Assembly (NCBI RefSeq): GCF_003461245.1
Contig: NZ_QTWS01000024.1
Span: 1,576 to 65,575 of the forward strand
Reading direction: 5' to 3'
From: Blautia sp. AF19-10LB
Lineage (GTDB): Bacteria; Bacillota; Clostridia; Lachnospirales; Lachnospiraceae
Length of the DNA: 64,000 nt
The notes under the pieces are model-generated. The model had not been told where the DNA came from. It was given only the letters and a program-made list of their open reading frames with translations, and did no database searches. This document shows positions 1,001-13,258 of the stretch, one piece after another (the stretch's first letter is position 1; each line of letters starts with the position of its first letter). Made by a program: the position numbers and the translations under genes.

Positions 1001-1379
1001 TGATTTTTTGGGACTTTATACGGGTAAAATTCAGACCGGTATCCGTCCTTTGATTGAAAAATATAAAAACCATCCCATGCTGATGGGGCTCCTCTCCAAT
1101 TTGGATGAAGCGGCAAAGATTCAGGCACCAAAAGCCATGAAAGAAATCTATTCTTTCTATAAGGAATATCGTGGCAGGGATCTGGAAGATGCTGACTGGA
1201 AGGAACTGACGGAAAAAGCCCGTCAGATCAGTGCAGGATGGGAGGAAAATGAATGGGTTCGCCGTATTGTACTGGAAATGATCAGCCTTTTGGATCCTGA
1301 TGATGCTGAGAGACGCAGGATTGCATTGGAAGTAGAAAAAGAAATGGAAGCGGCTGAACAGAAAATGAATGCGGCATAA
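966..1379 (+). CDS. hypothetical protein, predicted all-helical
   Basis: A 137-residue acidic and mostly helical protein with no recognised motif, no signal peptide and no membrane segment. It starts inside the previous gene, with an AAGGAAGGAAA ribosome site. A hairpin with a T-run directly downstream (1390-1424) could reduce read-through into the pcfK-like gene. Its co-orientation with the PcfK/PcfJ genes suggests a role in the same element, but I cannot name one. Confidence 0.55.
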   Translation: MTDQKLIAGIFNDFLGLYTGKIQTGIRPLIEKYKNHPMLMGLLSNLDEAAKIQAPKAMKEIYSFYKEYRGRDLEDADWKELTEKARQISAGWEENEWVRRIVLEMISLLDPDDAERRRIALEVEKEMEAAEQKMNAA

Positions 1380-1389
1380 AAAGCAGGCA

Positions 1390-1424
1390 GAGGCAGGAGA
1401 TTTTTTCTTCTGCCTCATGTTTTT
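1390..1424 (+). terminator. intercistronic terminator or attenuator
   Basis: A 9-bp stem (1390-1398 with 1408-1416, one G-T pair) is followed after two bases by a short T-run. It lies between two co-directional genes, so it may be a partial terminator that lowers expression of the downstream pcfK-pcfJ genes. Confidence 0.5.
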
Positions 1425-1446
1425 ATCAGGAAAGAAGGAATCGATT

Positions 1447-2166
1447 ATGTTAAATGAGATCATAAAAACTGCAGAAGAATTAAATACAGCAGCATTGTAT
1501 TACCGCCAGAGCGGGAATATGGATGGTGTGCGGGAACTTGCCAAAGCACATGCAGTTTCCCAAAAACAGACAGAGAAATTTATTCAGGGCAGCCGCTATC
1601 GGCTGGTTGATATACCGATTGAGGAAAGAAAGTTTGCGAATGCGTCTGAAAAACTGCGTGCAGAAATGTTTGCCTTAAAGGATGCAGGCTTTGCAGACAT
1701 CATAGGACAGTATCTTGTAAATCTTGCCAAAACGGATTCTGCTTTAGATGCACAGGTGTTAAAAAAACATAAGATGCTTCAGAGATGTTTGGATTATGTG
1801 ACGCAAAAAGCCTACAACATTGCACTGGAGGGAGCGAAAAAAAAGGGAGAGAACGGCATTCGGGCCAATACAGGCCTGGCACTCTCCGGCGACCAGGTTT
1901 TTCCCTGGGTACTTGAATATTATGCGAAAGATGATGAAAAAGAAATAGCAGAAAAAGAGCAGGAAGAAAAGAAAAAGATTCAAAAGGAATGGGATTCGGT
2001 AAATAAGAGAACGAAAACAATACCGAAAAACCAGGGGACAAAGAAAGATTCCGAGGTGCATCCCAAAGAAGCAGCGGAGCAGGAAGAAAAGCATATCAGC
2101 AAGAAAAAATCAAAAGATTCCGGGCAGATGTCCTTGTTTGACATGATGCAGCCGAAAGAGAGTTAA
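1447..2166 (+). CDS. PcfK-like / AcrIIA9-family protein
   Basis: A 239-residue protein starting at 1447 behind AAGAAGGA; an upstream in-frame ATG at 1369 lacks a ribosome site. The middle (about residues 80-160) fits the PcfK family named after plasmid pCF10: a 'KKxxMLQRCLDYVTQKA' helix, then a 'DQVFPWVLEYYAKDDE' segment. Members of this family in Firmicutes include the Cas9 inhibitor AcrIIA9. A long Lys/Glu-rich linker ends in GQMSLFDMM, a QxxLF-type sliding-clamp binding motif. The neighbours are two pcfJ genes, as in pCF10, where pcfK and pcfJ are adjacent. The family call is from recognition of the motif order; anti-Cas9 activity is only a possibility. Confidence 0.65.
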   Translation: MLNEIIKTAEELNTAALYYRQSGNMDGVRELAKAHAVSQKQTEKFIQGSRYRLVDIPIEERKFANASEKLRAEMFALKDAGFADIIGQYLVNLAKTDSALDAQVLKKHKMLQRCLDYVTQKAYNIALEGAKKKGENGIRANTGLALSGDQVFPWVLEYYAKDDEKEIAEKEQEEKKKIQKEWDSVNKRTKTIPKNQGTKKDSEVHPKEAAEQEEKHISKKKSKDSGQMSLFDMMQPKES

Positions 2167-2177
2167 AGGAGAAGGAT

Positions 2178-2720
2178 ATGATCGCATATAAAGGATTTCA
2201 AAAGGATTTGAAATGTCGGGGCTTTCAGTTTCAGGAGTATGGCATAAATGAAACGGAAAAAGCAAACTGTAGACAAAATGGATTTCATTGTGCAGAAAAC
2301 CCACTGGATTGTCTCTGCTATTATCCGAATTGGAAAAATTCCGTGTATTACATAGTAGATGCATCAGGGGATTTGGATGAAGATGGAAAAGATTCAAAAA
2401 TCTCCTGCACAAAGATGCGCCTGTTAAAGAAAATTGAATTGAGAAGCCTGTTATTACACGGAGCTGCTTACATGTCGAAATATCCAAACCGGAAATGGAA
2501 TTCCCATGTTGCAAAAGAAAGCGGGACCAGCTGCAACGGATTTTGCATTGTACGTGGAAAAGACCCCAAAGCCAAAGGACAAAAGGGCGATTTACTGTTA
2601 CTTTTAAAGGAGCAGCCTGGCAACAGCCAGATCCTGGAAATTGGGGTCATCTGTATCGATGGTCAGAAATATCCGGAGGGAGCATGGATTGATGTGACTG
2701 GAAAGCTGGTGGAGTTATGA
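2178..2720 (+). CDS. DUF7666-like element protein
   Basis: A 180-residue protein with the N-terminal pattern 'IAYKGFQKDLKCRGFQF ... GFHCAENPLDCLCYY', which I associate with a phage/plasmid family (DUF7666) of unknown function. The Cys and His residues (CAENPLDC) and aromatics form the conserved core; the C-terminal part is beta-rich. It follows the pcfK-like gene by 11 bases with a GGAGAAGG ribosome site and overlaps the first pcfJ gene by 4 bases (ATGA), so the three are likely co-translated. No enzymatic motif is evident. Confidence 0.6.
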   Translation: MIAYKGFQKDLKCRGFQFQEYGINETEKANCRQNGFHCAENPLDCLCYYPNWKNSVYYIVDASGDLDEDGKDSKISCTKMRLLKKIELRSLLLHGAAYMSKYPNRKWNSHVAKESGTSCNGFCIVRGKDPKAKGQKGDLLLLLKEQPGNSQILEIGVICIDGQKYPEGAWIDVTGKLVEL

Positions 2721-4909
2721 GAAAAAAGAGATTGATGGAGTTAAAACCATTAAAAGTGATGAACAGACATATCGCCGATGCAAAGAAAACGGAAATATCT
2801 TTGAGTACACTGGAGAAACAAAGGGGTGAACCCGGAAAATATCGGATGTATTGTCGGGCAGCAGTAGAAAAAGGAATTTTAAAAGTGTATCTATTTGCCG
2901 TAACAGATATTGAGGAGAATATAAACTTTCCAAGGTACCGTCTGTTTATCAGCAGAAAAGAGAGACGGTTTATAACTTATGATGAAAAATTAAAAAAATG
3001 GAGAAAGGCACTTCTTGAAAGTATCTTATGGGATGTAAGAACTAATTTGGGCAACATCTATGTAAATGACTGTGATACCAAGGTCATCCAAAAATATTTA
3101 AAGACAATGCAGCCTGCAATCCGGGCACTGGAAGAGTTTCAGGCGAATATCCGTAAAGAACAAAGGATACGTCATGATAAAAAACTTACAGATTCATGGG
3201 ACCAAGTGATGAAAACTGTATCTGGACTGCCTAAGAACTGGATCGGATGGGTTTCAAAATATGGAATTACGGAACACTATATCTTCTACAAGTATCAGAA
3301 AAATGGTGCTACAGAAGGATACTGTACATATTGCAAAAAACATGTTCCAATCCGCTCACCCAAATATAACCAGAAAGGACAGTGCAATGTGTGTGGACAA
3401 CCAATTACTTTTCGTTCTGTGGGAAAGTCTGGAAGATTTTGTACAAAGTGGTACAGAGTCTATCTTATCCAGAGGAGACGCAAGACTTCTGGTTTTGTGC
3501 TCCGGATCTTTCATGCCAGAACGTGGTATAAAAAGGGCGGCTATACAGATTGCGAAACTACCTGCCATGAAGAGCAGAGAAGAATCTTCTCTGCAAATGG
3601 AAAGGAAATTTCCAATTTCGTTTATGATCTGTTCAAACAACGGGAAATGCGTTGGATTTCGTGTAGAAGTTCTTGGTATTATACTTGCTGTGACAGTCAA
3701 TATAAAGGAATGGTTTATCCATATACCCTGTCGGATCTGTCCAGGCATGAATTAAAAGAAACAGGTCTGCGTGAGTACGCCCTTGGTCAGAAAAAGATAG
3801 ATCCTGGAAAATATCTTTACCTGTGGAAAACGTATCCGGTACTGGAACAGATTGTAAAAGCGGGGCTTTTCCAGTTAGTTGATGATGTACTGGACCACAG
3901 GGCAGCAGATGCAATAAAAAGAAAAGGCAGAAAACCAACAGAATTCCTGTCCGTAGATAAGAAAGAGTTTCGAAGACTCCGAGATATGAATGGCGGGGTA
4001 AAAGAACTTAAATGGCTGCAACTTGAAAAGAGTACAGGAAAAACAATCGGGGATGAAGAAATATGCTGGATGGTAAAAGAAGGATTTGAACCAAACGACC
4101 TGAAGTTTGTTCTGGATCAGATGAGCATCTGCCAGATTCGACATTATCTTGTGAAACAATCAGAAAAATCCGGGGATGATATCAGCCATGTGCTGCAGGT
4201 GTGGAACGATTATCTTTCTATGGCAAAAAGACTGGGAATGGATATACATGATTCCATTATTTACCGTACCAGAGATCTTCAACTGCGCCATAAAGAGGCG
4301 GTTTTGAAGATAGAAGAAATGAAACGCGGAATCCGACGCAGGGAGCTGGAAGAAAAGTATGTCGGATTTCAGAAACATCTCATTGATTTGAAAGAAAAAT
4401 ATGAGTTCAGTGACGGTGAATATCAGGTTATTGCGCCAAAGAGTATCGATGACATCCTATATGAAGGTGATACGCTTCATCACTGTGTAAATAAAACGGA
4501 TACTTATTTTGACCGGATCGTTTCAAAGGAAAGCTATATCCTATTTTTGCGGGAAAAAGAGAATCCGAAAGTACCGTTTTATACACTGGAAGTTGAACCA
4601 GATGGAACTATCCGGCAAAAACGTGCGGAATTTAATCGTCAAAATAAGGACATTGATAAAGTGACTTCTTTTTTAACATTGTGGCAGAAGGAAATTCAGA
4701 AACGATTAACCCAAAAAGATCGTAAGAGCACAGAAGAAAGCAGGAAGCTCAGGCAGCAGAACTATCAGGAGATACGTGATAAGCATGTAGTTGTCCATGG
4801 CGGAACATTTGCTGGGGAACTTCTGGCTGATCTTTTAGAGAAAGACTTAATGGACCTACCAGTGGAATCGGCAGAAAACGAAGAAAGCCCTACTGAAATA
4901 GCGGCGTAA
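2717..4909 (+). CDS. PcfJ-domain protein, copy 1
   Basis: A 730-residue protein of the PcfJ-like family of conjugative elements. Near residue 203 lies a four-Cys zinc-finger-like segment (CTYC ... CNVC). The C-terminal part carries the family hallmark around residues 580-625: 'DDILYEGDTLHHCV', then 'ESYILFLR' and 'YTLEVEPDGTIRQ'. The His-His-Cys triplet is invariant in both copies here. The biochemical role of PcfJ is not established; its association with transfer genes is known. The start overlaps the preceding stop (ATGA) and has a GGTGGAG site. The C-terminus is longer than that of copy 2 and acidic. The gene is intact. Confidence 0.75.
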   Translation: MRKKRLMELKPLKVMNRHIADAKKTEISLSTLEKQRGEPGKYRMYCRAAVEKGILKVYLFAVTDIEENINFPRYRLFISRKERRFITYDEKLKKWRKALLESILWDVRTNLGNIYVNDCDTKVIQKYLKTMQPAIRALEEFQANIRKEQRIRHDKKLTDSWDQVMKTVSGLPKNWIGWVSKYGITEHYIFYKYQKNGATEGYCTYCKKHVPIRSPKYNQKGQCNVCGQPITFRSVGKSGRFCTKWYRVYLIQRRRKTSGFVLRIFHARTWYKKGGYTDCETTCHEEQRRIFSANGKEISNFVYDLFKQREMRWISCRSSWYYTCCDSQYKGMVYPYTLSDLSRHELKETGLREYALGQKKIDPGKYLYLWKTYPVLEQIVKAGLFQLVDDVLDHRAADAIKRKGRKPTEFLSVDKKEFRRLRDMNGGVKELKWLQLEKSTGKTIGDEEICWMVKEGFEPNDLKFVLDQMSICQIRHYLVKQSEKSGDDISHVLQVWNDYLSMAKRLGMDIHDSIIYRTRDLQLRHKEAVLKIEEMKRGIRRRELEEKYVGFQKHLIDLKEKYEFSDGEYQVIAPKSIDDILYEGDTLHHCVNKTDTYFDRIVSKESYILFLREKENPKVPFYTLEVEPDGTIRQKRAEFNRQNKDIDKVTSFLTLWQKEIQKRLTQKDRKSTEESRKLRQQNYQEIRDKHVVVHGGTFAGELLADLLEKDLMDLPVESAENEESPTEIAA

Positions 4910-4926
4910 ATAAAAGGATAAAGTGG

Positions 4927-4953
4927 ATGCGGCAGGGAGTTCCCCTGCTGCAT
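4927..4953 (+). other. intercistronic hairpin between the pcfJ copies
   Basis: An 11-bp stem (4927-4937 with 4943-4953, one G-T pair) with a 5-nt loop and no T-run. It lies in the 102-base gap between the two pcfJ genes and may stabilise or process the transcript rather than end it. Confidence 0.5.
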
Positions 4954-5011
4954 TTGAGCAGAAAAGAGAAAATGACATTATATGCAGTAGAAAATGAAGG
5001 AGAGGACGGAA

Positions 5012-7156
5012 ATGAATAAAAAAGAATTGCGTAACATGAAATTGCTGGAAGCTACGGATGAACTGATAAAACTTGCAAAAGAAGATGTGCCAGTAAGAGA
5101 TAAAAGATACTATACGGAGCAGCTGATTTATCAGAGAGGGCTATATTTACGTGCAGAAGTAGAAAACAATATTTTAAAAGTAGCATTTTATCTGGCAGAA
5201 TATCTTTCCACGGACTGTCGGAAACCTGTATATACATTATATATTGATAAAAAGAACGATATTTTTAAAGGGTATGATTACCGGACAAAGAAATGGTCAG
5301 AAAGTATGCTGGATAAGACCATTTTCTCAAAATGGTTATATCAGGAAAATTCTTATATGAAAGAGGCGGATACAGCGTTGATCCAAAAGTATCTTGAAAG
5401 TGAATATGACGATGCTTTTTATGCACTGTATGTATATCAACGTGAGCAGAGACACCGGAGGCTGGGCATGAAATATGAAAAAATTCTGACAAGCTGGGAT
5501 CAGTGTATGGATAGACTTCCAAAAATTCCGAAAGACTGGCTGAGATGGCAGAAAAAAGTTGGAATTACCCAGAATTTTATCTTTTATCATTACAGCCGCA
5601 GGAAAGATCAGACAGGATATTGTAGTTGGTGTGAAAGCGAAGTTCCAATCAGCCATCCTCACCATAATGCAGTGGGGAATTGCCCAAAATGCAGACATCA
5701 GATTCAATATAAAGCATTAGGCCGGGCCAAAAATATAGAAACCCAAAAAGAGACTGCATACCTGCTTCAGACCTGTGGAAATAATGTGTTTGTTTTGAGA
5801 GAATTCCAGCTTCAGATGCTCATAGTAAGCAGCTCATATAAAAAACCAGTATATTCTTTCTTTGAGCGCCGGAGAATCCTGTATGATGAAGAATTAAATA
5901 CGAAAGAATATTATTTCGGCCGTCATCATTGGACAAAAGAAAACCGATGGATCCAGGGTAAATTACAGGTTCCACTGTATCCAGGTTACGGTGGCTATAT
6001 GACATATGAAAAATATGATATGGGAAATATTTATGGGAAATCACTGTATGGCATTAAAAACAGGACATTCCGTAGGACAGGATTCTACGAATATGCAAAA
6101 ACCAAAAAGTATTTAGATCCGGTAAGTTTTTTTGAAATGGTTAAAGAAAGACCTTATCTGGAACGGCTCATTAAAGCAGGACTTTATCATCTCGCAGAGG
6201 ACATTATGGATAATAAAGCACAGATCTATTGTGAAGATTCCGGAGACCTTGGAAAAGCACTGGGAATTGATGGATTCCGCTTAAAAAGGCTGCGTACAAA
6301 CAATGGGGGAGAGATTTTTCTTCAATGGCTATTACTTGAAAAAGCCCAAAATAAGTTGATCCGTGACGATGTGATTTCGTGGATGTGCCGGGAAAAGCTT
6401 AAACCAGCGGATCTTATGTTCATTATGGATCGTATGGCCCCTTTACAGATCAAAAATTATCTGGAAAAGAAGGCAGCAGAAAGTGGGGAATCCGTGAAAG
6501 ACCTGATCAAAACATGGAAGGATTATCTTAATATGGCAATTCGGGTCGGAGTGAATGTGCAGGATTCTGTTATCTACCGTGCACGAAAGCTCATGCAGAG
6601 ACATAATGAAATGATAAAAGAGATAGAAGCAAAAGATTTGATTTTAAGAGCCGGAGAGCTAGAAAAGAAGTATCCGGGTCTGAATCGTATATGCAGGGAT
6701 TTGAAAAAATATGAATATGCGGACAAAGAGTATCAGATCGTTGTGCCGGAAAAAGTGGATGACATTTTGTATGAAGCAAAACTGATGCATCACTGCGTAA
6801 ATAATACAGAAACCTATTATGAACGAATGAGCCAGCAGGAATCCTATATCCTGTTTTTGAGAAAGGCAGAACAACCAACGGAGGTGTACTATACGCTTGA
6901 AGTGGAACCGGATGGGACCATAAGGCAGACACGTACTTTTTATAACCAGCAGAATGAAGATATTGAGCTTGCAAGGGATTTTCTTGTAAAATGGCAGAAA
7001 CAATTAAAAAAGAAACTGGCAAAAGAAGATTATAAACTGGCTGTAAAAAGTCAGAGTCTCAGGAAAAAAGAGATTGACGAGCTCCGCAGCAAAGGCGTTC
7101 GTGTAAACGGTGTTGGGTATTGCAACAAATTACCGCGTCTGCGGATCAACCGATAA
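5012..7156 (+). CDS. PcfJ-domain protein, copy 2
   Basis: A 714-residue paralogue of copy 1. The start at 5012 is preferred over 4994 because AAGGAGAGG stands 7 nt before it. The layout matches copy 1: a zinc-finger-like Cys segment (CSWC ... CPKC) near residue 203 and the 'DDILYEAKLMHHCV' / 'YTLEVEPDGTIRQ' block near residues 580-625. Sequence between the landmarks has diverged strongly, so this is an old duplication or two independent acquisitions. It ends just before a strong terminator (7158-7199), closing the PcfK-PcfJ unit. Function as for copy 1, not known. Confidence 0.75.
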   Translation: MNKKELRNMKLLEATDELIKLAKEDVPVRDKRYYTEQLIYQRGLYLRAEVENNILKVAFYLAEYLSTDCRKPVYTLYIDKKNDIFKGYDYRTKKWSESMLDKTIFSKWLYQENSYMKEADTALIQKYLESEYDDAFYALYVYQREQRHRRLGMKYEKILTSWDQCMDRLPKIPKDWLRWQKKVGITQNFIFYHYSRRKDQTGYCSWCESEVPISHPHHNAVGNCPKCRHQIQYKALGRAKNIETQKETAYLLQTCGNNVFVLREFQLQMLIVSSSYKKPVYSFFERRRILYDEELNTKEYYFGRHHWTKENRWIQGKLQVPLYPGYGGYMTYEKYDMGNIYGKSLYGIKNRTFRRTGFYEYAKTKKYLDPVSFFEMVKERPYLERLIKAGLYHLAEDIMDNKAQIYCEDSGDLGKALGIDGFRLKRLRTNNGGEIFLQWLLLEKAQNKLIRDDVISWMCREKLKPADLMFIMDRMAPLQIKNYLEKKAAESGESVKDLIKTWKDYLNMAIRVGVNVQDSVIYRARKLMQRHNEMIKEIEAKDLILRAGELEKKYPGLNRICRDLKKYEYADKEYQIVVPEKVDDILYEAKLMHHCVNNTETYYERMSQQESYILFLRKAEQPTEVYYTLEVEPDGTIRQTRTFYNQQNEDIELARDFLVKWQKQLKKKLAKEDYKLAVKSQSLRKKEIDELRSKGVRVNGVGYCNKLPRLRINR

Positions 7157-7157
7157 A

Positions 7158-7199
7158 GACACAAAAAGAGTAAAATGAACTCTTGGAGTGTCTTTTTTT
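7158..7199 (+). terminator. Rho-independent terminator after pcfJ copy 2
   Basis: The stem 7158-7162/7088-type end pairs as 7158-7162 with 7088-free numbering 7188-7192, and an inner helix 7166-7171 pairs with 7179-7184 across a 3x3 internal loop. Seven T residues follow. The sequence resembles the terminator at 58-97. Confidence 0.75.
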
Positions 7200-7262
7200 G
7201 TTTGGCAAAATGTTTTGACATGTATCAGATTCAATCACGATAAAAGGAGGAAAGAAGTTTTT

Positions 7263-8810
7263 ATGCCACGTAAAATCAGATCAAATTACATGGAGAAATT
7301 CAAATTTGTGTACAATGGCAGAACTTTTGAAAGTAAGCATAAATGCTGTAATTTTTATGGAATATGTTACCGTAGTGTAATGGCGTATCAGAATCAATAT
7401 AAATGTAGAACTGAAGAAGCGATTACACATTTTATTGAATTGAAAAAAAGTAAAGAGATCATATTCCGAAATCGAAAATGGGCCAGCATTAAGACTTGTT
7501 GTGAATTTTATGATATAAACGAAGATTCTGTCAAGACCGATATGTGGAATCGAAAATGCACACCACAGGAAGCGATTGAACGGGCAATAGAATGGAAAAA
7601 GGCACATGAAATCACATATCATGGTGTGAAATACCCATCACTTCCTCAATGCTGTGAAGAATTGGGAATAAATCCTATATCCGTACGTTTGTATATGGAA
7701 AAGAATGGAGTTTCTTCTACACGTGCGATTACACATTACATTAAATCTAAAAAGAAAAGAATCTTTGCATTCCGGGGAAAAGAATACAATAGTTTCACGG
7801 AATGTTGTCTTGCGTATGGACTGAACCCCAAAATTGTAAGAAGTGCTGCCTATAGAACCAAAAGCTCCTTGCCAGAGACGTTGGAAAAAAATGTTTCTCA
7901 TATGGAAGGTTGCGTGCCACAGGAATCCACCGGAAATGATGAGAATTCTGGAAACAAGGTAATATCAAAAAAAAGGCGCCGCGCAAAAGAACCATTCTTT
8001 TATGAAGGGGAAAAATATGTTTCCCTTGGACAGTGTTGTGAGATATACGGAATTAATGAAACCAGTGTACGGGCCAGAGCATGGCGGATTCATTGCACCT
8101 GGGAAGAGGCTGTAAAACATTTTATCGAAAAAAGCAATGCGGATGAACTAAAAAAGATATTTGTATATAAGGGAAAAGAATATCAAAGTGTTGCTGAATG
8201 CTGCAGAAAGTATGATGTTCGTGCCGCCAGTGTCCGTAACCGGGCTTCCTCGACTGGATGTAGTATAGAAGAGGCCCTGGATCATTTCATAAAGAAAAAA
8301 ATAGTGACAAAGAAAAATGAATTTGTATTCCGAAATAAAATCTATGAAACGTTGGAAGAATGCTGTGAGGTTTATGGTGTGAATGCAAACAGCGTATCTT
8401 CAAGAAAGTATAAATTAGGGTGCAGCATAGATGAATCGTTGGAACATTTTATTGCAAACAAAGAGATAATCGAAGAAAGGATACAGAAGTTTACATTTAA
8501 GGGGACGGAATACCCCAGTCTCCGAGCATGCTGCAAAAAATATGGCATTGAGGATGCGTGTGTAAGGCAGAGAGCCAGAGATAAAAATTGTTCCATAGAA
8601 AAATCATTTGAGCATTTTATGACAAGAAAAAGAAAAAAGATGCTGGATAATCCTGAATTTGATTATCATGGAACCCTTTATCCATCGCTTAAGGAATGCT
8701 GCGAAAAACTAAAGATAAGTAAAAATAGTGTAGTAAGCAAAAGTCGTCGGAGCGGATGCAGCTTACAGGAAGCGGTAGAATATTATGTAAAAAAGCAGCA
8801 CAATAAATAA
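7263..8810 (+). CDS. protein of nine tandem Cys-Cys HTH-like repeats
   Basis: A 515-residue basic protein; the start at 7263 follows AAAGGAGGAAAG, and an upstream in-frame ATG at 7188 lies in the terminator. Almost the whole protein is nine copies of a 50-57-residue unit: an aromatic strand with 'F-x-G-x-x-Y', then 'S-L-x-E-C-C-x-x-Y-G-I-x-x-x-S-V-x-x-R', then 'C-S-x-E-E-A-x-x-H-F-I-x-K'. The Cys-Cys pair is present in all nine. A Lys/Arg-rich spacer of about 40 residues separates repeats 4 and 5. The 'SLxECCxxYGIxxxSVxxR' part has the period of a helix-turn-helix, like single modules in phage and homing-endonuclease proteins (NUMOD/IENR type). Nucleic-acid binding is inferred; no catalytic domain is present. 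Confidence 0.7.
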   Translation: MPRKIRSNYMEKFKFVYNGRTFESKHKCCNFYGICYRSVMAYQNQYKCRTEEAITHFIELKKSKEIIFRNRKWASIKTCCEFYDINEDSVKTDMWNRKCTPQEAIERAIEWKKAHEITYHGVKYPSLPQCCEELGINPISVRLYMEKNGVSSTRAITHYIKSKKKRIFAFRGKEYNSFTECCLAYGLNPKIVRSAAYRTKSSLPETLEKNVSHMEGCVPQESTGNDENSGNKVISKKRRRAKEPFFYEGEKYVSLGQCCEIYGINETSVRARAWRIHCTWEEAVKHFIEKSNADELKKIFVYKGKEYQSVAECCRKYDVRAASVRNRASSTGCSIEEALDHFIKKKIVTKKNEFVFRNKIYETLEECCEVYGVNANSVSSRKYKLGCSIDESLEHFIANKEIIEERIQKFTFKGTEYPSLRACCKKYGIEDACVRQRARDKNCSIEKSFEHFMTRKRKKMLDNPEFDYHGTLYPSLKECCEKLKISKNSVVSKSRRSGCSLQEAVEYYVKKQHNK

Positions 8811-8867: not shown

Positions 8868-8902
8868 ACAGCCAATATCATCTGCCTGCAGATATTGGCT
8901 GT
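8868..8902 (+). promoter_or_regulatory. hairpin between SD and start of the excisionase gene
   Basis: A perfect 12-bp inverted repeat (8868-8879 with 8891-8902, 11-nt loop) lies between an AGGAGG at 8861-8866 and the ATG at 8911. When folded, only about nine unpaired bases separate the Shine-Dalgarno sequence from the ATG, the normal spacing. No other ribosome site is near the ATG. This could be a structure-dependent initiation site, or the hairpin could be an ordinary regulatory element. Confidence 0.55.
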
Positions 8903-8910
8903 AATTATAT

Positions 8911-9108
8911 ATGATACATAAAAAGAAACAACCGGCAGCAGATAACGATAAGATTCTTATATCAGTTAAGGAAGCCTGTGAACTAACAGGGCTTTCTGAG
9001 AAAACAATGCGAACACTTATGAACAATAATACCTTCATGGTACGAATTGGGCGAAGAACCCTGATTGATAAGAAAAAATTTCAGAAATGGATAGATCGGC
9101 AGTCTTGA
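8911..9108 (+). CDS. xis: excisionase-like helix-turn-helix protein
   Basis: A 65-residue basic protein with the Tn916-Xis/MerR-like winged-helix pattern: 'ISVKEACELTGLSEKTMRTLM' followed by 'MVRIGRRTLIDKKKFQKWID' near the C-terminus. Such proteins bend DNA and direct integrase toward excision. It lies 81 bases upstream of the integrase gene in the order xis-int, standard for Tn916-type elements. The start has no adjacent ribosome site (see the hairpin at 8868-8902). It is intact, unlike the integrase. The symbol is by role and position. Confidence 0.75.
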   Translation: MIHKKKQPAADNDKILISVKEACELTGLSEKTMRTLMNNNTFMVRIGRRTLIDKKKFQKWIDRQS

Positions 9109-9189: not shown

Positions 9190-10472
9190 ATGGGAAAAAA
9201 TCTAAAAGGAAAAGAAATAGGTAAGGGAATCCGACAAAGAAAAGATGGGCGGTATGAAGCCAGAATCACAATTAAGGGTTCTGGCAAACCGCCTTTTTCT
9301 ATCTATGGAACAAATCTTCAGCAAGTGAGAAAGCAAAGAAGCATGTATTTAGCGGAGGTTCTCCCAGGTGTTCCAGGCTTTGATTCGAGTATGTCCGTTT
9401 CAAAATGGTATGAGAAATGGATGGAACTTTATAAGGTTCGGAATCTTAAAGCAACCACGATAAGAAATTATGAAGATGGTTTTAGAAGAACGGAAGAATA
9501 CATCGGTTACATGAAACTGGTAGATATCAAACCGGAACATATTCTTGACATGATTAAAAAATTGGAGGATGAAGGATACGCTCCTACATCAATCAAGCAA
9601 TCATTAAGTGTCGTGCATCAAATGTTTGAGAGGGCAGCAGCCAGTAAAATGATTCCATCGGATCCTACAGCAGAAGTTAAGCTTTCCGTTGAGGCACCGG
9701 GAGAAGTGTTGGCAGAACCTACAGAAGAAGCTTTGGATGTAAAAGAGAATTGTCTTAGTACAGACGAAAGCCATCGCTTTTTGGAAACCATTAAAGGAGA
9801 CCGTTATGAGGAACTTTTCTTGATTTTGATGCATACGGGAATGCGTATAGGCGAAGTACTTGCCTTACAATGGAGAGATGTCAATTTCGATGAAAAATAT
9901 CTTCGTGTATACAAAACGCTAAACAGAGTCAAATTGTATTATGACAAGCAGGGAAAGAAACTTGCTGAGCCGTATTATGTTACACAGATTACATCACCGA
10001 AAAAAAGAAAAGTGTCAGAATAATTCCGCTGCCAGATATTGCAATTGAAGCTTTTTTAAGCTGGAAAGAAAAACAGAATCAGGACAAGAAAGTGTTAGGC
10101 AAGAAATGGGGAACTGGAAATGATCTTCTAAAAAAATATCCTGGACTGATATTTACAACATCAACAGGAATGAGTTATCTTCCTGGTAATGCTGAAGATG
10201 AATGTGAGCGAATCAAAAATATTGTAAATAAGCAAGAAGCATTAGAGGCTGAAAAAGAAGGTCGAGAAGCAGAAATGTTAGATGTAACTCCACATAGCTT
10301 TCGTCATACTTTTGTAACAAGATGTGTACAATCTGGAATGAAACCGGCTACGGTAGGTAAAATCAGCGGTCATTCTACTCAGAAAATGACAGAGTATTAT
10401 ACGCATCTTGAACAGGGGTATGTAAAAGATGAATACAAACGGTATGATGAAAAGTATGGAAAAGAAAGCTGA
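9190..10472 (+). pseudogene. int: Tn916-type tyrosine integrase, frameshifted
   Basis: The first frame (9190-10023, 277 residues) has an arm-binding N-terminus, a core-binding domain ('KATTIRNYEDGFRRTEEYIG') and the first catalytic block 'MRIGEVLALQWRDV'. It then stops. The -1 frame continues from about 10011 with 'IPLPDIAIEAFLSWKEKQ' and the rest of the catalytic domain, 'HSFRHTFVTR', 'ISGHSTQ' and the Tyr in 'MTEYYTHLEQGY', ending at 10472. One missing A in the A-rich run 10000-10011 explains the shift. The run is not a canonical X-XXY-YYZ slippery site in the zero frame, so a disabling indel (or a sequencing error) is more likely than programmed frameshifting. With xis it marks the right end of the element. 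Confidence 0.85.
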
Positions 10473-10513: not shown

Positions 10514-13258
10514 TTGGAAAAAACAAGAAACACTGAAGAAGAAAAAAAAATGGGTCAAAAGTGGGTTAAAGAGGAACATAAAGCATCTACAAGCCGCGTA
10601 AATACAGGGTTTCCAATTAACACAGGGAAACTATCACCGATGATGCAGGAATACTGCAAGACAAAGGAAACCTACAAAGACTGTATTTTGTTCTACCGCC
10701 TGGGCGATTTTTATGAGATGTTTTTTGAGGATGCGCTGCTGGTGTCCAAGGAGCTGGAGCTGACACTGACCGGTAAGGACTGCGGGCTTGAGGAGCGTGC
10801 GCCGATGTGTGGGATTCCGTTTCATGCTGCGGAGACTTATATCAAGCGTCTGATCGAGAAGGGGCATAAGGTGGCAATCTGTGAGCAGGTGGAGGATCCG
10901 AAGAAAGCCAAAGGTCTGGTAAAGCGTGAAGTTATCCGTGTTGTCACACCTGGAACGACTTTGGATGCGACTTCTCTGGATGAGTCCAAGAATAACTATC
11001 TGATGTCCATTGTATCAATGGAGGATCATTTTGGCTGCGCCATCGCAGATATTACAACCGGTGACTGTTTTCTGACAGAAGTAGACAAGCCTCAGAAACT
11101 TCTGGATGAGATCAACAAATTCGTCCCTGCGGAAATCATCTGCAATGACGCTTTTTTTATGAGCGGAATTGATACAGAAGATCTGAAAGACCGCCTTCAT
11201 ATCTGTATTTTCCCGCTGGATAACTGGTATTTTGATGACAGTCTGTGCAAGCGCACACTGAGAGAACACTTCCATGTAAATACACTGGAAGGACTTGGTA
11301 TTCAGGATTATGACAGCGGCGTGATCGCAGCAGGAGCACTTTTTCAGTATCTGAATGAGACACAGAAGACAGCCTTATCTCATATGGCATCGATCCGTCC
11401 GTATTCCGCGGATAAATTTATGCTGATCGACAGTTCCAGCCGCAGAAACCTGGAACTGGTAGAGACACTTCGTGAGAAACAGAAACGAGGATCTCTTCTA
11501 TGGGTACTTGATAAGACAAAGACCGCAATGGGAGCCAGAACGTTACGAGGATATGTAGAGCAGCCGCTGATCGATGCATCTGAGATCCGTGCCCGTCTGG
11601 AGGCAGTGGAAGAACTGACCCAGAGGCCGATGCTGCGCGATGAGATCCGTGAATACCTCAATCCGATCTACGATCTGGAGAGATTGATCAGCCGCATCAG
11701 TTATCAGTCCGCAAACCCGAGAGATATGGTGGCGTTTGCTTCTTCACTGGCAATGATCCCGTATATCCGCCAGGTCCTTCAGGAATTTGAGGCTCCGGTC
11801 CTTAAGAAAATCTATGAAGATATGGACCCGCTTGAGGATGTCACAGATCTGATCAAACGCGCGATCGTGGATGAACCGCCGCTCGCACAGAAAGACGGAG
11901 GCATCATCAGGGAAGGTTATCATGCAGATGTCGACAAATACCGCCGTTCCAGGACCGACGGCAAGAAATGGCTTGCAGAGCTGGAAGCCCGCGAAAAGGA
12001 ACGTACCGGGATTAAGACACTCAAGATCAAATACAGCCGTGTGTTTGGATATGCCCTTGAGGTAACGAATTCATTCAAAGACCAGGTTCCGGATAATTAT
12101 GTCCGCAAGCAGACACTGACCAATGCCGAGCGCTATATCACACAGGAACTCAAAGAACTCGAAGATCTGATCCTCGGCGCGGAGGACCGCCTGTATGCGC
12201 TGGAATATGAACTGTTTGCAGATGTCAGGGATAAAGTCGGACAGGAGGTTGTCCGTATCCAGCGGACAGCGAAGGCAGTTGCAGCGCTCGATGTTTTTGC
12301 CTCTCTTGCCCTTGTTGCTGAGAAAAATAACTTTGTCAAACCGAAGATTAACGAGAGCGGCGTCCTGGATATCAAGGGCGGCCGTCATCCGGTCGTAGAG
12401 CAGATGATCGAAAACGATATGTTTATCTCCAATGATACATATCTGGACAATCAGAAAAAACGTGTCTCCATCATCACCGGACCGAATATGGCAGGTAAAT
12501 CTACCTATATGCGTCAGACGGCCCTCATCGTTCTTATGGCACAGATCGGAAGCTTTGTTCCGGCAGAGAAGGCAAACATCGGAATCGTGGATCGTATCTT
12601 TACGAGAGTCGGTGCATCTGATGACCTGGCAAGCGGACAGAGTACTTTTATGGTGGAGATGACAGAGGTTGCCAATATTCTTCGAAATGCGACTTCCAGA
12701 AGTCTTTTGATATTGGATGAGATCGGACGTGGAACAAGTACCTTTGACGGACTGGCGATCGCATGGGCGGTGATCGAGCATATCAGCAACACCAAGCTCT
12801 GTGGAGCCAAGACACTTTTTGCAACACATTATCATGAGCTGACCGAACTGGAAGGCAAGATCCCGGGAGTCAATAACTACTGTATCGCTGTCAAGGAAAA
12901 AGGCGATGACATTGTATTTTTACGTAAGATAGTCAAGGGCGGCGCGGATAAGAGCTATGGTATCCAGGTAGCGAAGCTTGCCGGTGTGCCGGATTCTGTC
13001 ATCAACCGTGCAAAAGAACTCGTCGAAGAACTCAGCGATGCGGATATCACGGCAGCAGTCAAGGACCTGACCGCACCGAAGAAAAAACAGAAGATCGTCT
13101 ATGACCAGGTAGATATGGCACAGATGTCACTTTTTGATACCGTGCAGGATAATGATATCGTAGAGGAGATCAAAAACCTGGACATGACGAATCTGACACC
13201 GATGGAAGCTATGAATATTTTATATAATTTACAGAACAAGATCAAAAACCGCTGGTAA
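10514..13258 (+). CDS. mutS: DNA mismatch repair ATPase MutS
   Basis: MutS recognises mismatches and recruits MutL. The mismatch-reading 'GDFYEMFFEDA' motif is near residue 65, the Walker A 'GPNMAGKST' near residue 655, then 'STFMVEMTE' and 'LLILDEIGRGTSTFDG'. The C-terminus carries AQMSLFD, a sliding-clamp binding motif. The start is uncertain. The family-type N-terminus begins at 'KLSPMMQEY' (about 10629), but no start codon precedes it where the family has one; instead the frame runs back through about 38 unusual residues to ATG 10550 or TTG 10514, the latter behind AGGAAGAGG. ATG 10640 is a weak alternative. The extension is apparently contributed by the element next door. Confidence 0.93.
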   Translation: MEKTRNTEEEKKMGQKWVKEEHKASTSRVNTGFPINTGKLSPMMQEYCKTKETYKDCILFYRLGDFYEMFFEDALLVSKELELTLTGKDCGLEERAPMCGIPFHAAETYIKRLIEKGHKVAICEQVEDPKKAKGLVKREVIRVVTPGTTLDATSLDESKNNYLMSIVSMEDHFGCAIADITTGDCFLTEVDKPQKLLDEINKFVPAEIICNDAFFMSGIDTEDLKDRLHICIFPLDNWYFDDSLCKRTLREHFHVNTLEGLGIQDYDSGVIAAGALFQYLNETQKTALSHMASIRPYSADKFMLIDSSSRRNLELVETLREKQKRGSLLWVLDKTKTAMGARTLRGYVEQPLIDASEIRARLEAVEELTQRPMLRDEIREYLNPIYDLERLISRISYQSANPRDMVAFASSLAMIPYIRQVLQEFEAPVLKKIYEDMDPLEDVTDLIKRAIVDEPPLAQKDGGIIREGYHADVDKYRRSRTDGKKWLAELEAREKERTGIKTLKIKYSRVFGYALEVTNSFKDQVPDNYVRKQTLTNAERYITQELKELEDLILGAEDRLYALEYELFADVRDKVGQEVVRIQRTAKAVAALDVFASLALVAEKNNFVKPKINESGVLDIKGGRHPVVEQMIENDMFISNDTYLDNQKKRVSIITGPNMAGKSTYMRQTALIVLMAQIGSFVPAEKANIGIVDRIFTRVGASDDLASGQSTFMVEMTEVANILRNATSRSLLILDEIGRGTSTFDGLAIAWAVIEHISNTKLCGAKTLFATHYHELTELEGKIPGVNNYCIAVKEKGDDIVFLRKIVKGGADKSYGIQVAKLAGVPDSVINRAKELVEELSDADITAAVKDLTAPKKKQKIVYDQVDMAQMSLFDTVQDNDIVEEIKNLDMTNLTPMEAMNILYNLQNKIKNRW
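10551..10570 (+). repeat. direct repeat between int and mutS
   Basis: Two near-identical copies of TGGGTCAAAAG/TGGGTTAAAG start 11 bases apart (10551 and 10562), one helical turn. Such short direct repeats next to int are typical of integrase arm-type sites, so this may be part of the attachment region. It also encodes the MGQKWVKEE part of the extended MutS N-terminus. Confidence 0.4.

Follow-up and report, generated by a model that had tools for sequence, protein, structure and literature searches.

Beside a presumed mutS gene, the 64,000-nucleotide (nt) stretch of Blautia sp. AF19-10LB DNA analysed here (the window; part of contig NZ_QTWS01000024.1) carries an integrative element, one gene of which encodes the repeat protein that is the subject of this report. 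The array gene is a forward-strand open reading frame (7263..8810; ATG at 7263, stop at 8808–8810) preceded by AGGAGG at 7245–7250, and its product of 515 amino acids (aa) consists of nine Cys-Cys (CC) units of predicted hairpin–helix-turn-helix–helix fold and one linker, with little else. The CC pairs number exactly nine (aa 28, 79, 130, 181, 258, 313, 367, 423 and 479) and are spaced by 51, 51, 51, 77, 55, 54, 56 and 56 aa. The 77-aa interval contains a 26-aa low-confidence linker between units 4 and 5 (7914..7991, +; predicted local distance difference test score, pLDDT, below 50 over most of it), and the remaining spacing of 51–56 aa bears out the nine-repeat Cys-Cys protein described here in an initial annotation. 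Unit alignment and the structural model place units 1–3 at 7302..7457, 7455..7610 and 7608..7760, and units 5–9 at 7992..8153, 8157..8318, 8319..8480, 8487..8648 and 8655..8807; unit 4 (7761..7913) was placed by unit alignment and the leave-one-out test, and all nine lie on the + strand.

The nine-unit repeat is not a product of chance, since every unit scored 42.9–74.3 bits against a model of the other eight (unit 4 lowest), whereas the best domain among 1000 shuffles of the protein reached 7.4 bits. Identity to unit 6 is only 23–43%. The block S-L-x-E-C-C-x-x-Y-G-I-x-x-x-S-V, initially reported as kept by all repeats, survives as part of the consensus (xFxYxGxxYxSLxxCCExYGINxxSVRxxx...CSxxEAxEHFI) but not as a constant, because C15, C16 and V26 are the only strictly invariant columns. 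Nine CC pairs are kept in all 120 listed relatives (of 235 found), but these are 98–100% identical to the window protein and therefore provide no independent evidence. Most of the 120 have predicted starts upstream of the AGGAGG, giving up to 620 aa.

An AlphaFold2 model built from 50 sequences (mean pLDDT 79.3) features the order beta-hairpin, helix 1, turn, helix 2, helix 3 nine times over, and it consists of these units except for the ends and the linker. In unit 1 the helices span aa 25–31 and 36–46, the latter being helix 2, and a helix-turn-helix (HTH) is likewise predicted in all nine units; no unit gave a confident match to a family that does not bind nucleic acid. Both outcomes agree with the initial annotation. 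The nearest Pfam profile is PF22083 (I-HmuI NUMOD-like), matched by the whole protein at 39.4 bits (cut-off 27) as a sum over units. The best profile matches of the window array and of the sister arrays described below, again summed over units, are PF22083 and its neighbours (DUF4250, PVL_ORF50, NUMOD1 and the I-TevI DNA-binding domain), with PVL_ORF50 matching 101 of the 120 listed sister arrays, and the units are probably of the NUMOD kind. A review describes NUMODs as tethered regions of phage-type homing endonucleases that contact targets of up to 30 bp (PMC3943268), and a GIY-YIG survey treats them as fused to nucleases (PMC1564403). Whereas known NUMODs are joined to a nuclease, the window array has nine in a row and nothing else: as initially proposed, a Pfam search of the protein at E≤1 revealed no catalytic domain (GIY-YIG, HNH, EDxHD or others). 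In PHROGs the protein matches phrog_1065, a phage family that has no name (E 1.2e-21).

Distant arrays were found by phage and plasmid searches in the Vibrio filamentous phage protein Vpf497, a Streptococcus equinus plasmid, Butyrivibrio plasmid pCY360 and a gut phage contig. Relatives of the S. equinus protein (483 at E≤1e-8, 120 listed) define a sister family, the DHLGN type; the first sister set comprises 121 arrays and 837 units with the consensus TDHLGNEFKSIKEMCKHYGISYSTYRSRIKKGWSLEEALTTPV. An array of this type is also modelled as hairpin–HTH–helix units, in which the predicted second helix covers columns 22–30. Thirty pairs of units from the same array are at least 70% identical, and these mismatch most at columns 21–24, 26 and 27 (0.57–0.87), followed by columns 31, 9, 30 and 12 (0.47–0.57). 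A homogenisation test set the diversity among units of one array against that obtained when units were shuffled between arrays; it put homogenisation at 0–3% for eight exposed recognition columns and at 2–12% for 13 other variable columns (P=2e-5; P=0.006 with columns 25 and 29 included). Because these columns had been picked after the pair-mismatch result, the test was repeated with preset columns on a second set of 88 newly listed proteins; removal of P0241 (nearly identical to the query), three further near copies and nine proteins with fewer than four detected units left 75 arrays and 510 units. The repeat gave P=0.0013 and 0.019, and 23 near-identical unit pairs of this set mismatch at 0.54 in recognition columns versus 0.26 in other variable columns. 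Column 12 shows low homogenisation in both sets. In 16 close orthologous pairs that we picked (101 unit pairs), change at recognition columns (0.41) is no faster than at the remaining surface columns (0.38).

Surface chemistry also sets the recognition positions apart. Using sets of exposed positions that we selected, acidic residues occupy 7 of 72 recognition positions in the window array (9.7%) and 33 of 117 other exposed positions (28.2%; P=0.0016). When the arrays of the Blautia genome G334 and of another Lachnospiraceae genome, G234, are included, the counts are 17/216 and 79/324 (P=3e-7), and the acidic shares in the first and second sister sets are 7.8% versus 30.8% and 8.4% versus 31.7%, respectively.

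Comparison with orthologues in Blautia massiliensis (L001), Blautia luti (L002) and genomes G313 and G315 revealed that the array is under purifying selection. Between the window and G315 the nonsynonymous and synonymous rates (dN and dS) are 0.10 and 0.98, giving a dN/dS of 0.10, and the same ratio was obtained for helix 2 of units 4–9 and, between L001 and G315, for the integrase of the element. For the window array the ratio against L002 is 0.16 overall and 0.11 over units 4–9, and that against G313 is 0.15 and 0.10; the values for units 4–9 are rough, as dS there is saturated at about 2. Unit order is colinear between orthologues. There is no sign of either retargeting or special protection of the recognition positions; since recognition residues change neither faster nor slower than other exposed ones between orthologues, the comparison sits better with a fixed target than with retargeting.

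The array resides in a mobile element. Segments from pcfK through the array, xis and int are 96–100% identical between the window and L001, whereas the gene that follows (10514..13258, +), which we take from its sequence to be the chromosomal mutS, drops to 78.7%; the array is therefore placed inside the element, with the right end near the int–mutS junction. Downstream of the array lie an excisionase-like gene, xis (8911..9108, +; profile match to HTH_17 and Tn916-Xis), and a tyrosine integrase gene in two pieces, the first at 9190..10023 (+; Pfam and comparison with relatives) and the C-terminal one at 10092..10472 (+; family search and comparison). This integrase frame, split between 9190 and 10472, shows a one-base gap in its alignment to L001, and the integrases of L001, L002, G315 and G313, unlike that of the window, are open throughout. 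Upstream, comparison with L001 and L002 assigns a PcfK-like gene (1369..2166, +; also family search) and a PcfJ-like gene (4994..7156, +; also Pfam) to the same element. The 3′ end of this pcfJ is altered because some 578 bp that separate pcfJ from the array in L001 and L002 are missing from the window at 7131. For the array, PcfK and the two PcfJ proteins, no PADLOC defence family matched at E≤0.01.

Five of the 64 Blautia genomes searched carry the array, and the order array–xis–int–mutS is found in all five as well as in the window; pcfJ lies upstream of the array in four of these carriers and is not within the G315 stretch. Relative to L002, identity falls from 97–99% in the left part to 80% in the array, 86% in xis and 68–71% in int. 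The boundary of a past exchange seems to run through the array, since units 1–3 of the protein are 94–96% identical to those of L002 and units 4–9 only 60–85%. The array of G334, with ten units, is 29% identical (xis 62%, int 41–50%). G234 carries a more distant CC-type array of eight units near an N-terminal integrase fragment. A CC-type unit model matched three of 299 Lachnospiraceae genomes, namely G001 itself, G234 and G164 (one DHLGN-like hit), and the CC type is thus rare outside Blautia.

On balance, we favor an interpretation in which the integrative element encodes a stand-alone array of DNA-binding modules that grips one extended, fixed sequence. That DNA is the ligand is suggested by several lines of evidence and is likely; that there is one fixed, extended target, as purifying selection suggests, is rather probable; and a role in the control of xis and int, a guess from synteny, falls somewhat short of an even chance. 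In the proposed mechanism, nine small HTH modules on short linkers in a single stand-alone protein would each insert their second helix into the groove of double-stranded DNA, the nine units would jointly grip the sequence, and the array would serve excision and integration, either by binding an operator or as an architectural factor. The array directly precedes xis and int wherever it is found in Blautia, so the most likely target is DNA of the element itself, and a fixed target there is our best guess for the window array. Where it would lie is a guess among an attachment end and two candidate sites. One is the conserved non-coding stretch before the array gene (7132..7262, +), a candidate control or target region, whose identity between L001 and G315 is 0.92–0.97 per 60-nt bin versus 0.53–0.92 within the array gene; this conservation is not unique, as values of 0.95–0.98 are also reached around xis and in int. 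The other is an inverted repeat between the array stop and the xis start (8868..8902, +), the 25-nt core of which (8873–8897) is present as a single copy in each of four of the five Blautia genomes.

Several results weigh against this interpretation. The predicted template modelling score of the array is low (0.34), and the model therefore does not fix the arrangement of the units. Foldseek searches returned only designed toroids for the window model (template modelling scores 0.09–0.13) and no hit at E≤0.001 for the sister-array model, and a PDB sequence search of the array protein gave no match. PF22083 passes its cut-off as a sum alone, with no single stretch at E≤1; units scanned singly match it at E≤1 in three of nine cases (best 0.027), so the NUMOD-type assignment made initially holds for the nearest profile but is weak for single units. 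Summing over units also lifts a wrong family, TENA_THI-4, past its cut-off in a sister array (53.6 bits versus 22), as it does at E≤1e-3 in 39 of 120 listed sister proteins, which makes the PF22083 score weak proof; twelve sister units scanned singly hit, for the most part, a mixture of HTH models (best E 0.0065). Recognition positions are no better conserved between orthologues than other exposed ones (0.74–0.78 versus 0.72–0.80), and helix 2 even changes slightly faster against L002 and G313 (dN/dS 0.13 versus 0.09–0.10 elsewhere, with synonymous sites saturated). The second set shows the sister-family signature less strongly, with overlapping column groups (0–3% versus 0–11%), and the stretches retrieved from phages and plasmids contain no annotated integrase. 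Variation highest at the recognition helix, anticipated in the initial annotation, is seen in the sister family, while the window array varies between units at most of its exposed columns and not at the recognition positions alone.

Of the alternatives, the best placed, though unlikely, is a low-specificity coating or bridging protein, in which many weak HTH units would bind the DNA of the element with little sequence preference in the manner of nucleoid or silencing proteins. Slightly less probable is an RNA-binding array whose units read structured RNA, such as the array–xis hairpin or an mRNA leader. The hairpin at 8868..8902 has a z of −3.2, two outer stem pairs change jointly in L002 and G313 with the loop fixed, and it is positioned after a ribosome site and before the xis start; its core is absent from G334, which nevertheless has an array, and the nearest named modules are the DNA-binding parts of homing endonucleases. 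HTH-like repeats can also act as scaffolds, and the weak single-unit matches would suit a protein–protein scaffold that no longer contacts nucleic acid; this we consider improbable given that acidic residues are depleted exactly at the helix-2 positions and that relatives carry DUF2726-like or weakly GIY-YIG-like tails. Decay of a homing endonuclease after loss of its nuclease is very improbable, for although the named module is nuclease-associated, the window integrase and pcfJ end are damaged and dN/dS over units 4–9 is higher in two very close pairs (0.28 on 13 changes for window–L001, 0.71 on 8 for L002–G313), the array gives 0.10–0.16 in more distant pairs and nine-unit frames without a nuclease tail are open in G313, G315 and L002.

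The reading of the protein as a DNA-gripping array invites comparison with TALE, BurrH and RipTAL proteins, which perhaps work similarly as modular arrays; near-identical sister units differ mainly at recognition positions. A TALE repeat is about 34 aa long and carries a repeat-variable diresidue, whereas the window units, spaced by 51–56 aa and of hairpin–HTH–helix form, are not repeats of this kind; TALE-like near-identity of repeats is not found in the window array and is approached in some sister arrays. The modular nucleic-acid-reading array of the initial annotation gains partial support from the predicted HTH, the nearest profile and the sister-family variation. A TALE-inspired screen took in repeats of 30–43 aa (PMC5472282), which are shorter than the window spacing. 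Searches of the open-licence literature, judged from titles and abstracts, listed no paper that presents such arrays as modular readers; the module kind is known, but a long array with such a variation pattern appears not to have been described there before.

We tentatively suggest that HTH arrays of this kind on mobile elements make up a natural class of their own, as modular DNA readers with extended targets, in which some six to eight exposed residues in and beside helix 2 of each unit would confer specificity. Some would stand alone in xis–int modules and others would carry a nuclease-like tail, paralleling in nature the designed TALEs and TALE nucleases. Few modular DNA readers are known from nature. 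A large family of HTH arrays in which units differ chiefly at the recognition helix would add a further recognition scheme, with a large body of natural sequences from which to decode it, and would account for a set of genes on gut mobile elements, plasmids and phages that lack annotation.

Among the 120 listed sister proteins, 15 have DUF2726-like tails with an E-x-D-G motif, which we take to be of PD-(D/E)XK type, and ten match DUF2726 at E≤1e-3; six aligned tails share IExDGxxH followed by IPxxRIRxDQ. ExDGxQH occurs in 54 of 84 proteins of the second search, the query of which itself had such a tail. The DUF2726-like tail of some sister arrays is perhaps a nuclease domain. In Vpf497 of phage VfO3K6 (L003 2980–4473), an array of several such units precedes a C-terminal stretch weakly like MUG113 and T5orf172 (E 0.012 and 0.022, below cut-off; GIY-YIG relatives), whereas the window array lacks a tail; ORF8 of f237 is presumably its counterpart, and a 1494-base f237 record was matched in the phage search. 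The DNA-binding sCTP of Paulinella (8b6e) is a single small domain with a structural Z too low to claim kinship. Nine of the 299 Lachnospiraceae genomes match the DHLGN unit model at E≤0.001, including G001 through its CC array. In G164 an AP2-like stretch (24.2 bits, cut-off 33.3) is joined to DHLGN units, and in G161 an array–tail fusion lies near integrase-like and rep-like frames that were named by eye.

Further gene arrangements were noted alongside these arrays. In the window, a DUF7666 gene (2178–2720) is followed by two tandem PcfJ-like genes (2717–7156) with a mutual identity of about 36%. G234 has, besides its CC-type array, a second broken copy (L036 6184–8100 and 9086–11034; L037 7508–9017), with the same short gene after each, and the first array lies near what looks to be a ribosomal-protection tetracycline-resistance gene. 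On Butyrivibrio plasmid pCY360 (L005 4175–9794), six consecutive frames with such units, one of them single-unit, lie downstream of cas12a.
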